The notes under the pieces are model-generated. The model had not been told where the DNA came from and did not search any database. It saw nothing but the letters and a program-made list of their open reading frames with translations. Source: Guptibacillus hwajinpoensis (lineage in GTDB: Bacteria > Bacillota > Bacilli > Bacillales > Bacillaceae_J). From it: a stretch of 45,171 nt of DNA. This document shows, one piece after another, positions 19,096 to 43,022 of this stretch. Made by a program: the position numbers and the translations under genes. The DNA lies in NCBI GenBank assembly GCA_016841285.1, contig JAENZK010000002.1:1-45171 (forward strand), given 5' to 3'. Numbering within the stretch: position 1 is the stretch's first letter; each line of letters opens with the position of its first letter.

Positions 19096-19152
19096 TGGGG
19101 ACAACGCCGCCTGTACTACTGAAATCACTTCCGCGGTATGGTGCTGTCCCCA
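19096..19152. repeat. REP-like nested palindrome
   Basis: TGGGGACA (19096-19103) and TGTCCCCA (19145-19152) are perfect 8-bp arms; inside, CCGC (19107-19110) faces GCGG (19133-19136). The GGGGACA/TGTCCCC type of palindrome is common as a dispersed non-coding repeat in Firmicutes. It is richer in G+C than its flanks and lies between two small leftward membrane protein genes. Confidence 0.5.
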
Positions 19153-19207: not shown

Positions 19208-19438
19208 TTATTCACCTTTATCTTTGGTTTTTGACTCTTTTTCCGCCAATAATCGATCCAGCTTTTCCTCTATTCTGTCTAAGCGGTTCTTACTTTTTCT
19301 ACGTGTCTTTGAGATTATTAATATGAGGGCCAACGGAATCCCCAGCAATATTAAAAATGACATTAACTGAAAGATGATGTCACCTACATTAATACCAGCT
19401 TGCCCAACCTCAATCTCAAATAAAAGGAATTGCAACAT
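19208..19438 (-). CDS. DUF4083-like small membrane protein
   Basis: A 76-residue protein: a membrane segment (about 20-45), then a basic linker (KTRRKSKN) and a short helix DRIEEKLDRLLAEKE that looks like a coiled coil, ending in a Lys/Asp/Glu tail. The arrangement INVGDIIFQLMSF...RLDRIEEKLDRLL is that of the DUF4083 family. The ATG at 19438 is preferred over the GTG two codons upstream; the ribosome site is weak (AAAGAG). Function unknown. Confidence 0.65.
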   Translation of the reverse strand: MLQFLLFEIEVGQAGINVGDIIFQLMSFLILLGIPLALILIISKTRRKSKNRLDRIEEKLDRLLAEKESKTKDKGE

Positions 19439-19579
19439 GATCACTCTTTCTTTTGATTTCTAGTAGTGTGCAGCATTACCCACTTTAGAGCCTTTAGGTA
19501 GCAACCACTCCTCTTATTTTACCATTTATTTTCCTTTTTCGGCATTGGTGATTCATCGTTTTGTTAATCGAACAGGGCA

Positions 19580-19610: not shown

Positions 19611-19723
19611 GGGCTGTGTTTTTGCATTATGAGGACAGGCTGACTGTTTTTCCTGTTGGTTGTGGCCGCATTTTCTTTTCCATAAGGAGAAATAAATTGT
19701 TCCCGCTGGTTAATATTTTTCTC

Positions 19724-20243
19724 TGATTTCCGCACTTAACACTTTTCCGGAGATTCAGGAATCATTGACGCTTTTTGATTCCCGCACCCTACTCTTTTCC
19801 GGCGGTCCGGGAATCATTGGCGACCTTTGATTCCCGCATCCTACTCTTTTCCGGCCATCCGGGAATCATTGGCGCTCTTTGATTCCCGCACCCTACTCTT
19901 TTCCGGCGGTCCGGGAATCATTGACACTCTTTGATTCCCACTCCCTACTCTTTTCCGGCAGTCCGGGAATCATTAACACTCTTTGATTCCCACTCCCTAC
20001 TCTTTTCCTACCATTTGGGAATCATTGACGATCTTTGATTCCCGCACCCTACTCTTTTCCTACGATCCGGGAATCATTGAGCACCTTTGATTCCCACTCC
20101 CTACTCTTTTCCTACGATCCGGGAATCATTGACGATCTTTGATTCCCACTCCCTACTCTTTTCTGGCGGTCCGGGAATCATTGACACTCTTTGATTCCCG
20201 CGCTCAACACTTTTTCTACGATTCAGGAATCAATGGAGCCCCG
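19724..20243. repeat. Tandem array of ten 52-bp hairpin units
   Basis: Units begin with TGATTCCCG or a variant at 19724, 19776, 19828, 19880, 19932, 19984, 20036, 20088, 20140 and 20192, exactly 52 bp apart with no indel. Each has 9-bp arms TGATTCCCG and CGGGAATCA, a 23-nt loop with a conserved CTACTCTTTTCC core, and an 11-nt linker. The outer units (first and last) are the most diverged; unit 6 changes both arms together (CCCA/TGGG), while others keep an unmatched ninth pair. It ends 32 bp from the stop of the PglX gene. Not CRISPR: there are no unique spacers. Confidence 0.92.
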
Positions 20244-20275
20244 TCCAAGCTAATGATCCGCTATGCAAAAACTCT

Positions 20276-23200
20276 TCATTTAATCGGAGCCACCAATCCT
20301 TCAAGCTTGCTGTAATTCACAGCAACTCCATCATCCAAGTCAATTTTAATTTTTTGTTCCGCCCGCTCGTGCAGACGCTGATAATAATCTTTTAATTCCT
20401 CTATTTTCGTATCAAGAGCCTTTAATTCCTTGTTAATCTCCTTACCCCTTATTCCACTTTCCTCCATCTCCATCAATGCCGACTTTTCCCCTTTGAGCAA
20501 TGCTAACTGTTCCTGTAAATATTCATCACGGATTCGGCCCAATATATCCGCATCATACCGGTGGATATAAACTAGACAATTAAAAACTCTTTGCTTCCCA
20601 GAGGTAAACAACCAATAAATCGGTCGTTTTTTATATACTTTAAGATGGTCTTTATAGAAGTCCTGTAAAAAATAACGGCGAAGCGCATCCCAAGGCCTTT
20701 CTCCTTTTTTCACACCAATTACACTCGCTATAAATTCAAGATTTTCTGTCAGTGTCCCCTCTCCGAAGGAAATTTTGACAAACTCCTCAAATCTTGCAAA
20801 AATGTCATCCTCTAAATGCCCTTCCGATAGAATTGGTATAATAGTGTCTTTTTTGATCACCGGATAAGTTTTATAGCTTATTTCATTAAATTCTCCACCA
20901 GCAAAAACAAGTCCAGCTTCATCCAATGAGTACCGCCCAAACATACAGCCTACTGCATATGAAATAAAGGATTTGATCTCCCTTTCTAGATTAGCCTTTC
21001 GAATCGTTACATTTTCGTCATTTACCTCAGGCGTGTATTCATTTCCTAAATCATAATTTTTAATAAATAACTCATTAATCTTCTCTTCATTAGATTTCAA
21101 CGCCGAAAACATTTTCCCACTATACCTCTTCCAATTTTCAAAAGCCTGCTCAACCATTTCCTCCGTACCTTTAAATTTCAACAATGGATGGACTCTAAAT
21201 TTCCAAGAAGTCTCATAGCTATCCCATTCACTTTTTGAAATCTTAATATTTTCCTTAGAAAGCTCTATGATTTCCTCTAAAACTACTTGGTCCTTAGGAA
21301 TCACTAATGGGAGATTGGCGATATTCCCTGGCTGAAAGTTCAATGTTGGGTTTTGAATTCTTAAAAATTCATAAGCAAGCTTGCTGCATAAAAAGGCCGT
21401 TATATAGTAAATACTTTCACCGTCCACAAAAGCCGAAGAGCCTCCCGTATCAAACAAAAACCCCCGCTCTGAATACCTGACTCCAAAGTAACTCGAGCTG
21501 ACAAAGGACCATGTTATACTTTCTTTAAAATAATATTCGGTATTGGCAATCCCAATTTTGGAATCCCTCGAAGCGTTTAGATAAGCATTAAACTCTCTAA
21601 TTTCCTTGCCATCATCCGCCCAGTTGACCACATAAAATTGATTACCATACCATTTACGATATTCGCCACCCTTATTATAAGGAAACCATTTCAGTCCACT
21701 TGCCTGGGCTTCACCCCGGTCCTTCATACCAAAACCAATTCTTCGAAAATCAACCTCATGCCATAACCGCAAAAATCGTTGATTATTACTTGTTTGCAAG
21801 CCAACCCTTGCTTTTGCAATTGTTTCTAACTTTTGTGCGTTTTCAATGACATGGATCGCTTCCGCTCCTGCCCAAAAGGAGAATGGATGCCCAGGAATCT
21901 TTTTAAAAACATTGGCATGAACACTGTAACGGTAATCGACCTCGGGATTTTTAACAGCCTCCAGCGTTTTGATAGGCTGATTGTTCACCCCTTTAAATTC
22001 AGCCAGATTAATAAATTGCCCTCGTATGCCTACCTTGTTGTTTCTTAATGTAAAAGTACAAACAGGTACAGTCGCCCCATCAAATCCCGAGTATTCAAGC
22101 AAGATCAAGCTGCTAATTTCCCTTTCTTTAATAATGCGCTTCCTTAGCCCTTCAAAGGAAGAAATGAACATCCAAACATAGGGTGTCATAAACCCAAGCA
22201 AACCGTACTCCTTTACCTTCTTAAAGCCATCTAGCATAAAAGATGCAAAAAGGTCTTTTTTACCGATCGGAAAATAAGTTTCAACATGCTCTGATAAATC
22301 CTGATTTAAATACCGATTTCCAATATAGGGTGGGTTTGTGACTAACACATCATATCGAGTTTGTAATATTTCCGCTTGTTTAAGTAAAGTTGGGATAAGC
22401 TCTATCAATTTTGATTTGGACCGCTTTTTCAATTCCCGGTATTGTTCTTTTATAAAATCATAATCGACCGAATCAATCTGCAATAAAGACCCAAGTGTTT
22501 TTGCATTATAAAATTGATCAATTAAATGCTTAACCTCCGAGAAAGCCCTTTCATTGTTTTCACCGACAAAATAAGCAATATCCTCTTCCGTTACTTGATT
22601 CGTTTCTTGCATTGAAGTAAGGTTCATTTTGAGTCGCCCATCTCGAACAGCAGTTGTTAAGAAATCCCCATCATATTGCGTCGCTTTCATCATTAACATA
22701 AAAACAGCTAAATCGTAAACACGGTCATCTATATCTGCCCCATAAAGATTATTTTCAATAATAAGCTTCGGAATCTCCTGCTTGTTATAGCTACCACACC
22801 TACAATAAATTTCATATAATATATCAAACATATAGACAAGAATATGCCCACTCCCCATTGCTGGGTCAAAGCACTTGAGCTCTTCTATTCTTAATTCAGA
22901 ATTTATATATGGTTCTAGCTTTTGTTCATAGTGATCCTCTTCATCTTGGCTTTCTATGTAAAATTCCCAATTCGCAATCAAGTCACGGTGTTCCGAATGT
23001 GACTCTATCCAGAATCGGCCCAAAGTGTTTTGTACCATATAGCGGACAATCCAATCAGGCGTAAATAGTTGGGTGGCGTATGGAATTTCAGCGGTTGTAT
23101 ATTTCTTTTTCGCTTTAATAACCCGTTCTTTTTCTTCTGCAAAATAATACTGATAGAGCCAGCCAATAATTTCAACACGGCGCCAAAGTTCTTCAGGTAT

Positions 23201-23572
23201 GATTGAAGTGTCTGTTAGTTTCGTAATAAAGGATTGTTCGTAAAGAAGTTCTTCAGGAAACAAAGACATAAGGGATATGTCATCTTTTGAAAATAGAGAA
23301 GGAAAATATTGATGTAAATCGTCGCAATTACGAAAGATTGTTTTTTTCAAAGAGTCTTCAGATGTATAGTTTGCAGTGCCAAATACCTTTTCCGGCAAAA
23401 ATCCGTTCATTTCCATAAAGCGGATTGCTATGATCCGGATAAACCATTTATAGGCCGCCTTTTCGACGATCATTGGATCAGTGATTCCGATTTGTTTTGC
23501 CTGTTTATCAATTTTTTCCTGGAGCTCCCGACTGGCATCATTTGCAAACCTCTTTATCGAATTTCGATTCAT
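20276..23572 (-). CDS. pglX: Orphan BREX-type adenine-specific DNA methyltransferase PglX
   Basis: A 1098-residue DNA N6-adenine methyltransferase. The N-terminus (AAYKWFIRIIAIRFMEMNGFLPEKVF, about 39-64) is characteristic of BREX PglX. S-adenosylmethionine motif I is FDPAMGSGH (235-243) and catalytic motif IV is NPPY (413-416); a target-recognition-like region follows (about 600-830) and a Lys/Glu coiled coil near 1010-1080. There is no nuclease motif, so it modifies rather than cuts. In BREX it marks host DNA, alongside BrxA, BrxB, BrxC, PglZ and BrxL, none of which is present within at least 15 kb on either side here. ATG behind GGTGGTGAG. A hairpin minisatellite lies directly after its stop. 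Confidence 0.88.
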   Translation of the reverse strand: MNRNSIKRFANDASRELQEKIDKQAKQIGITDPMIVEKAAYKWFIRIIAIRFMEMNGFLPEKVFGTANYTSEDSLKKTIFRNCDDLHQYFPSLFSKDDISLMSLFPEELLYEQSFITKLTDTSIIPEELWRRVEIIGWLYQYYFAEEKERVIKAKKKYTTAEIPYATQLFTPDWIVRYMVQNTLGRFWIESHSEHRDLIANWEFYIESQDEEDHYEQKLEPYINSELRIEELKCFDPAMGSGHILVYMFDILYEIYCRCGSYNKQEIPKLIIENNLYGADIDDRVYDLAVFMLMMKATQYDGDFLTTAVRDGRLKMNLTSMQETNQVTEEDIAYFVGENNERAFSEVKHLIDQFYNAKTLGSLLQIDSVDYDFIKEQYRELKKRSKSKLIELIPTLLKQAEILQTRYDVLVTNPPYIGNRYLNQDLSEHVETYFPIGKKDLFASFMLDGFKKVKEYGLLGFMTPYVWMFISSFEGLRKRIIKEREISSLILLEYSGFDGATVPVCTFTLRNNKVGIRGQFINLAEFKGVNNQPIKTLEAVKNPEVDYRYSVHANVFKKIPGHPFSFWAGAEAIHVIENAQKLETIAKARVGLQTSNNQRFLRLWHEVDFRRIGFGMKDRGEAQASGLKWFPYNKGGEYRKWYGNQFYVVNWADDGKEIREFNAYLNASRDSKIGIANTEYYFKESITWSFVSSSYFGVRYSERGFLFDTGGSSAFVDGESIYYITAFLCSKLAYEFLRIQNPTLNFQPGNIANLPLVIPKDQVVLEEIIELSKENIKISKSEWDSYETSWKFRVHPLLKFKGTEEMVEQAFENWKRYSGKMFSALKSNEEKINELFIKNYDLGNEYTPEVNDENVTIRKANLEREIKSFISYAVGCMFGRYSLDEAGLVFAGGEFNEISYKTYPVIKKDTIIPILSEGHLEDDIFARFEEFVKISFGEGTLTENLEFIASVIGVKKGERPWDALRRYFLQDFYKDHLKVYKKRPIYWLFTSGKQRVFNCLVYIHRYDADILGRIRDEYLQEQLALLKGEKSALMEMEESGIRGKEINKELKALDTKIEELKDYYQRLHERAEQKIKIDLDDGVAVNYSKLEGLVAPIK

Positions 23573-42771: not shown

Positions 42772-42784
42772 GCTCCTAGAGTGG

Positions 42785-43022
42785 TTTTCGGGCGCAAAGT
42801 ATTCCTTTAATGACCGAGAACCACTTCTGTGCTGGCTTTCGGGCGCTAAGTATTCCTTTAGTGACCGAGAACCACTTCTGCGCTGGTTTTCGGGCTCTAT
42901 AAATTCCTTTAGTGACCGAGAACCACTTCTGCGCTGGTTTTCGGGCTCTATAAATTCCTTTAGTGACCGAGAACCACTTCTGCGCTGACTTCCGGGCTCT
43001 AAATATTCCTTTAATGACCTAA
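42785..43022. repeat. Tandem array of 51-bp hairpin units
   Basis: Units start at 42785, 42836, 42887, 42938 and 42989, exactly 51 bp apart; the fifth is cut by a REP-like element. Units 3 and 4 are identical over almost all positions. Each has arms TGGTTTTCGG and CCGAGAACCA (ten pairs, one G-U), a 22-nt loop with the core ATTCCTTTAGTGA and a linker CTTCTGCGC. As 51 is a multiple of three, both strands stay open as 17-residue repeats, but there is no ribosome site or codon evidence for translation. Confidence 0.88.

Follow-up and report, generated by a model that had tools for sequence, protein, structure and literature searches.

A 52-bp palindromic tandem array of Guptibacillus hwajinpoensis and the geometry, placement and possible role of its satellite class

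Satellites with a 52-nt repeat were reportedly the subject of an earlier study by Subirana and Messeguer, in J Bacteriol 202:e00229-20 of 2020. Constant repeat length without constant sequence has been unexplained since the class was first described. The available text of a later survey (Subirana and Messeguer 2021, PMC8161180) describes 4029 tandem repeats from 176 Bacillus genomes, 1886 of them 51 to 53 nt long; the 52-nt repeats are constant in size and variable in sequence, are called species specific, and are proposed to serve either a protein that forms polymers along DNA and depends on a uniform repeat size, or the production of small RNAs. In the accessible part of PMC8625621, such repeats are reported to be transcribed in B. 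coagulans, on the basis of RNA-seq. Another described system is that of the enterobacterial REP and BIME-2 elements: as far as the available texts go, BIME-2 is reported to bind DNA gyrase in E. coli (PMC2817692, PMC3733652), and REP sequences lie mainly between unidirectional and convergent genes (PMC3733652).

Here, we analyzed a tandem array in a window of 45,171 nucleotides from Guptibacillus hwajinpoensis (assembly GCA_016841285.1, contig JAENZK010000002.1, positions 1 to 45,171, forward strand) and found it to be a member of the published 52-nt Bacillus satellite class. That class is delimited by repeats of 51 to 53 nt, at least four copies and at least 60% equal-length units, and the window array has ten units with all steps of 52. 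Several equal-length families per genome are likewise found in the source genome, and the short signal accompanied by its reverse within one repeat is supplied by GGGAATCA and TGATTCCC. The resemblance to the class, as set out in the available text of PMC8161180, thus covers a period of 51 to 53, variable sequence, several families and mostly 4 to 10 copies.

Anatomy and neighbors of the window array

Tandem Repeats Finder placed the array at 19720-20201 with period 52, 0% indels and a score of 626; the top score for any period of at least 20 was 54 in 100 mononucleotide-shuffled versions of the 4 kb around it. Read unit by unit, the array belongs to arm family A and occupies 19724..20243 (no strand assigned), with ten unit starts counted from 19724 and every step exactly 52 bp, which confirms the ten indel-free units described in an earlier note on this DNA. 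Pairwise identity among the ten units ranged from 0.62 to 0.94 (mean, 0.81) and was at least 0.79 among the inner eight; the end units are the most diverged, the last matching the consensus at 0.71, so that the divergence of up to about a third claimed previously is correct and comes from the end units.

The family A unit consists of GGGAATCA-N11-TGATTCCC followed by a 25-bp spacer. This tightest pairing forms a 27-nt box that spans the unit boundary chosen in the earlier note; the inverted arms recognized there are real, but the hairpin drawn from them, TGATTCCC and GGGAATCA around a 25-nt loop, is the looser pairing. Eight perfect boxes lie on the plus strand between 19809 and 20199, one per 52 bp (19809-19835, 19861-19887 and so on to 20173-20199), and an imperfect ninth, AGGAATCA...TGATTCCC, can be read from the sequence at the left end (19757..19783, plus strand). 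In the eight units used, identity was 1.00 for the arms, 0.76 for the loop and 0.82 for the spacer, in line with the claim that the arms are kept better than the linker, with the qualification that units were selected by arm resemblance, which favors the arms. Both irregularities of pairing that had been pointed out are present: the unit at 19984 carries CCCA...TGGG where others carry CCCG...CGGG, a paired change, and the units at 19932, 20088 and 20140 have CCCA opposite CGGG, an unmatched pair. When two window units were folded as RNA on both strands, the GGGAATCA/TGATTCCC hairpin appeared in all four folds, of which one was clearly better than shuffled sequence (z, −3.9; the others, −1.4, −1.1 and −0.6).

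The array is non-coding, 52 not being a multiple of three and its position being between reading frames; a mechanically called 58-aa ORF (20139-20315, plus strand) overlaps its end, with no evidence of a gene. No Rfam family matched the window at its gathering score, and no viral contig matched a 25-base piece of the unit exactly. To the right lies a minus-strand gene for a PglX/type IIG restriction-methyltransferase of 1098 aa (20276..23572; PADLOC PglX, 1226.6 bits, and REase_MTase_IIG, 1077.8 bits; Pfam Eco57I), whose 3′ end faces the array, with the stop codon 33 bp away. Among the five neighboring proteins scanned around PglX, none was another Pgl or BREX component. Next downstream of the array in the PglX direction is a small ORF, mechanically called, of 78 aa with a GTG start (19208..19444, minus strand), and the array is therefore flanked by two co-directional reading frames. 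A link to PglX, behind whose gene the earlier note had placed the array, was not supported: flanking genes vary from array to array.

A second array of the same class lies at 42782..43019 (no strand assigned), with period 51, 4.7 copies and arms CCGAGAACCA-N9-TGGTTTTCGG, between convergent genes for a NERD-domain protein and a nitroreductase-family protein. The window also holds, at 19097-19151, a lone 55-bp inverted repeat, GGGGACA...TGTCCCC, with a REP-like look; this was the sole instance in the window and in 57 fetched stretches of the same genome.

Arms, step and dyad within the genome and across genera

We analyzed 16 arrays with GGGAATCA-N11-TGATTCCC in the source genome, and Tandem Repeats Finder, run on the fetched contigs, returned period 52 for all 16. 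Arrays of 51 to 53 bp with other arms are also present, and the genome carries both family A (GGGAATCA) and family D (GTCCGAA) arrays. Searched with free gaps (5 to 30 and 12 to 40), the arm pattern matched in tandem 50 and 53 times across the 4.55-Mb genome and its reversed control not at all, and the single GGGAATCA/TGATTCCC hairpin occurred 69 times (control, 0). Neither the Tandem Repeats Finder result nor the free-gap counts use the period. The free step lists gave 52 nearly throughout, the exceptions being a few steps of 51, one of 103 and one of 56, the last of which (L099) spans an assembly gap of N.

In the 16 family A arrays, identity within arrays and between their consensuses was 0.961 and 0.947 for the arms, 0.760 and 0.580 for the loop, and 0.786 and 0.393 for the spacer (0.289 when shuffled), where a unit was required to have at most 4 mismatches in 16 arm bases and the next unit exactly 52 bp on, a definition that favors arms and period. 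Since arms agree at 0.947 between arrays and spacers at 0.393, arms and length are retained as the remaining sequence diverges, and the constraint on spacing and inverted arms suspected from one array was recovered across 16, all of period 52.

The step was also seen in samples taken blind to the arms. In 355,618 bp of the source genome (every twelfth contig, with few exceptions), arrays with a period of at least 30 had periods of 38, 45, 52, 52, 52 and 53, and none carried GGGAATCA. In 400 kb of genome G313, six arrays had period 52 and one had period 51; a sample of 299 kb drawn from 20 genomes yielded one array of 52 and two of 53. The limited sequence sampled from G001 and G002 contained no 52-bp array, and the arm search found D arrays in both of these genomes. 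The 52-bp ruler is thus independent of the arms.

Of the 397 genomes of the order, 6, in six families, had family A arrays. Family A arms also occur in ten named genomes of the GTDB collection, including Neobacillus, Peribacillus and Bacillus; three of these appear, by their matching coordinates, to be carriers G034, G085 and G246, which are of the same order as the source genome. Of the collection stretches, 30 of 47 (ten Bacillus-like genomes) were used; the 17 left out have other spacings and include three Pseudomonas stretches with 39-bp arrays as well as L029, which has two 52-bp arrays. L222 and L267 were dropped as the same array as L171. Arm D, GTCCGAA-N-TTCRGAC, was more widespread, with arrays in 29 of 397 genomes, 14 of 135 genera and eight families, and reached 266 and 249 matches per genome, whereas the reversed control gave 1 match in each of 2 genomes. 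Its distribution is patchy, with presence and absence inside one genus (g64, g22, g86 and g12); in g64, D arrays were found in nine sampled species but not in G219. D arms can also be found in Table 1 of PMC8161180, in B. oceanisediminis and B. alkalitelluris. Only a few arrays represent arm families C and E, and a TGTC-N19-GACA box is restricted to 5 of 250 genomes of the class and so is not universal.

With gaps left free, the loop measured 11 in 185 of 188 family A hairpins and 288 of 292 family D hairpins. Spacers of family A were 25 (212), 24 (60) or 26 (6) of 280, and those of family D, whose arms are one base shorter per side, were 27 (310), 26 (29) or 28 (7) of 353. A scan for eight-pair arms over all loop lengths put even loops at the shuffled level and odd loops above it, and in 24 published consensuses the odd-loop excess amounted to up to 10 arrays with at least 7 pairs, about 0.1 being expected. 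Among 16 arrays not chosen by arm, 11 had an odd-loop palindrome of at least 7 pairs (one also an even one) and 5 had none. A base-centered dyad, typically of 27 nt, is the rule for arrays that have a dyad, and not all have one. At L099:3548-3820, L101:3483-3652 and L055:191-623, 52-bp arrays without a clear palindrome lie beside palindromic ones, and therefore the period outlasts the palindrome.

The 11-nt loop of arm D has a polar consensus of about GTnGnnnCAGG in several genera (e.g., L275 and L243), which a plain hairpin does not explain. Pseudomonas oryzihabitans and a relative (L042, L053 and L054) contain period-39 palindromic arrays with arms GTGATTCC(C)/(G)GGAATCAC, a second fixed ruler, this one in a different phylum. 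A contig labeled uncultured Bacteroidales (L029) holds two unlike 52-bp arrays next to each other, one of them GGGATCAC-N12-GTGATCCC with an even loop and the other without a clear palindrome; either the class extends beyond Bacillota or the contig is mislabeled.

Placement relative to genes and covariation of the arms

Array sites are not distributed like other intergenic gaps. We found 33 convergent, 40 co-directional and 3 divergent gene pairs at 76 array sites, compared with 130, 571 and 220, respectively, at 921 other intergenic gaps of at least 60 bp. Convergent pairs are enriched (OR, 4.7; P = 4.5e-9) and divergent pairs avoided (3/76 versus 220/921). These counts depend on simple ORF picking, and thresholds of 80, 100 and 150 aa gave convergent ORs of 3.8, 4.7 and 4.0, with a weaker divergent deficit at 150 aa (P = 0.07). 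The convergent excess recurred in stretches picked without regard to arms (6 of 12 sites versus 97 of 609; P = 0.007). Arrays begin at a median of 95 bp past the stop codon (n = 106), and at co-directional sites they lie a median of 174 bp ahead of the next start (n = 40). A crude custom detector placed terminator-like hairpins at 44 of 106 array-side 3′ ends and 240 of 561 others; a terminator role was not supported, such hairpins being as frequent before arrays as elsewhere.

Comparison of 144 arrays by their flanking proteins showed both flanks and the array to be common to G306/G326 and to Neobacillus DY30/N. niacini F8; others had one flank in common. In the sister genomes L032/L065 and L245/L274, the array occupies the same convergent site, with the arms kept and the spacers changed. 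The earlier note had envisaged that a unit scattered at random intergenic sites, with no constant neighbors and no covariation, would be a generic dispersed repeat. The unit is indeed dispersed and has no constant neighbor, but its placement is non-random, with convergent gene pairs favored.

No strand preference is consistent across families. For arm D, the array strand showed no preference relative to transcription, whether judged by loop polarity (14 versus 11) or by C-A/T-G asymmetry (12 versus 13), counts that include a few arrays fetched twice. For family A, the GGGAATCAAA strand was the sense strand in 10 of 11 clear-polarity arrays between co-directional genes, by a hand count that set aside two mixed L048 arrays.

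We then considered whether the two arms change together. A tandem set of TGTC-N19-GACA boxes, comprising the first-listed box of each of 11 arrays, has only its outer four base pairs fixed; in its six inner pairs, double-change cells numbered 13 versus 6.2 ± 1.8 when shuffled, and the covariation score was 0.309 versus 0.119 (0/500 shuffles), falling to 0.04 to 0.17 after a slide of 1 to 3 columns. The result held on all five measures (0/500, and 6/500 for pairs changed on both sides), with pairs 9 and 10 formed in only 6 of the 11 arrays. A 14-box set, of which four boxes were hand-picked, scored 0.459 versus 0.130, and one of its five measures, pairs changed on both sides, was not above the shuffles (217/500). 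In G525, four arrays have four different inner arms, and since one sequence-specific protein would hardly read them all, pairing or shape is the likelier target.

In 52 D-arm consensuses, the search pattern fixes all but one of the seven arm pairs (C-G in 30, C-A in 22); covariation was detected at outer offsets 1 to 4 (P = 0.0005 to 0.016) and neither at pair 5 nor in the loop. Family A behaved otherwise: there are hardly any compensated changes, mismatches are retained, for instance CT in 16 of 71 units with no polarity, and one-sided changes comprise 34 G-T and 26 A-C, no G-T excess. Covariation, the check that the earlier note had proposed, is thus observed at the level of the class, in the inner pairs of the 11 arrays, but hardly in the GGGAATCA family, as its author had suspected.

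Possible function and comparison with known systems

The DNA helix has 10.4 bp per turn. A base-centered inverted repeat of about 27 bp plus a spacer of 25 ± 1 would therefore set successive repeats five helical turns apart. The reading that we put forward, tentatively and by analogy with BIME-2, is that the arrays may be DNA-level platforms for a putative factor, located between transcription units and with their repeats in phase at five helical turns. Arms and geometry, whose conservation we observed, would be under purifying selection; the dyads, or hairpins if extruded, would lie together on the same side of the helix and act at the DNA level; a putative protein or topoisomerase complex would be held between transcription units, chiefly where transcripts converge; and the bound complex might absorb supercoiling or insulate neighboring units, in the manner of BIME-2, which is reported to bind gyrase in E. 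coli. Several observations argue against such a platform. Five of the 16 arrays not chosen by arm lack a clear palindrome, as do those in L099, L101 and L055; the family A polarity (10/11) is what an RNA reading would predict; the covariation fits an RNA hairpin equally well, and family A is almost without compensated changes; a 3′-side preference would be expected of any insertion that spares promoters; and transcription is reported in B. coagulans in the accessible part of PMC8625621.

We rank a DNA platform first, a satellite without cell function second and an RNA element third because arm D is strand neutral, because there is no G-T excess, and because of odd centering with a five-turn step, which is natural for DNA and pointless for RNA. 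A self-propagating or neutral satellite would need the arms and the 52-bp step only for its copying machinery, through slippage at hairpins or a nuclease or recombinase acting on single-stranded hairpins, and would persist harmlessly behind genes. The many arrays per genome, the patchy presence (arm A in 6/397 genomes, arm D within a genus), homogenization inside arrays (spacers, 0.79 within and 0.39 between), the diverged end units of the window array and the avoidance of divergent promoter regions, which any tolerated insertion would show, all suit this explanation. It is nevertheless somewhat doubtful: spacers hardly related between arrays do not look like recent copies, although the arms and the length have been preserved; the convergent excess stands against the sum of all other sites and not only against divergent ones; and the Y1 (HUH) transposase family is not needed, since carrier G089 has none. 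We consider it unlikely that the arrays are instead strings of hairpins in 3′ untranslated RNA, serving as a bidirectional terminator, an exonuclease barrier or a source of small RNAs. Covarying stems, the hairpin in RNA folds, family A polarity relative to co-directional genes, a location behind genes at a median of 95 bp from the stop codon and the transcription described for B. coagulans (PMC8625621, available part) are what such an element would show, but arm D is oriented independently of transcription in both counts, the C-A mismatch that it retains would become G-U only in RNA of the opposite strand, which is not favored, family A has 34 G-T against 26 A-C changes, 3′ ends beside arrays do not lack terminators, an RNA hairpin requires neither an odd loop nor a step of 52 nt, and Rfam, at gathering scores, had no match in the window.

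Two further explanations appear far less probable. REP/BIME elements proper, mobilized by a RAYT (Y1) transposase, would likewise be palindromic, intergenic and present in many copies with alternating inverted arms, and the REP placement given in the available text of PMC3733652 is similar; nevertheless, we found no association with Y1 over 21 genomes (domain in 12/13 carriers and 7/8 others, and none in carrier G089), and no GTAG or CGTC tag was present in the eight perfect boxes of the window when each was extended by one flanking base, which makes this origin very unlikely. A CRISPR-like array, with its palindromic repeat and spacer at regular steps, is the most improbable of all: spacers within one array repeat each other (0.79 identity), what would be the "repeat" changes from array to array, there are many arrays per genome, and the available text of PMC8161180 likewise rejects CRISPR.

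Returning to the DNA platform, a broader and more speculative version of it is that the 52-bp satellites might be one structural system shared across Bacillota, in which pairing and not sequence is kept and a putative factor reads shape and spacing; the arrays would then be, in effect, a chromatin or supercoil boundary element with frozen geometry and free sequence, a generalization that we regard as possible rather than probable. The window array is ordinary as an object, its class being known, and the problem that the class poses is now better defined. A base-centered dyad, an 11-nt loop or an equivalent one, a 25 ± 1 spacer, a covarying stem, convergent placement and arms shared across genera turn the satellites into a defined object, so that arrays can be synthesized with intact or disrupted pairing and with native or altered phase, and binders pulled down. 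The arms found across genera offer a probe for the putative factor, by comparison of carriers and noncarriers of one genus.

With respect to the published account, whose available text states that there is no sequence conservation, the arm motifs described here are common to several genera. In the accessible main text of PMC8161180, the words convergent, intergenic and hairpin and the stem palindrom- do not occur, and relative to that text we add the base-centered palindrome, arms across genera, compensatory changes, convergent enrichment and the retention of arms over spacers. The likeness to enterobacterial BIME-2 and REP elements lies in extragenic palindromes with alternating orientation, in arrays and behind genes (PMC2817692 and PMC3733652, as far as available); the 52-bp arrays differ in having no Y1 link, a fixed step and arms that vary between arrays. 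The 20- to 21-nt satellites of Bacillus and other bacteria (PMC8161180, available text) also combine constant size with variable sequence, and they do so at another length and in other species, with two helical turns instead of five.
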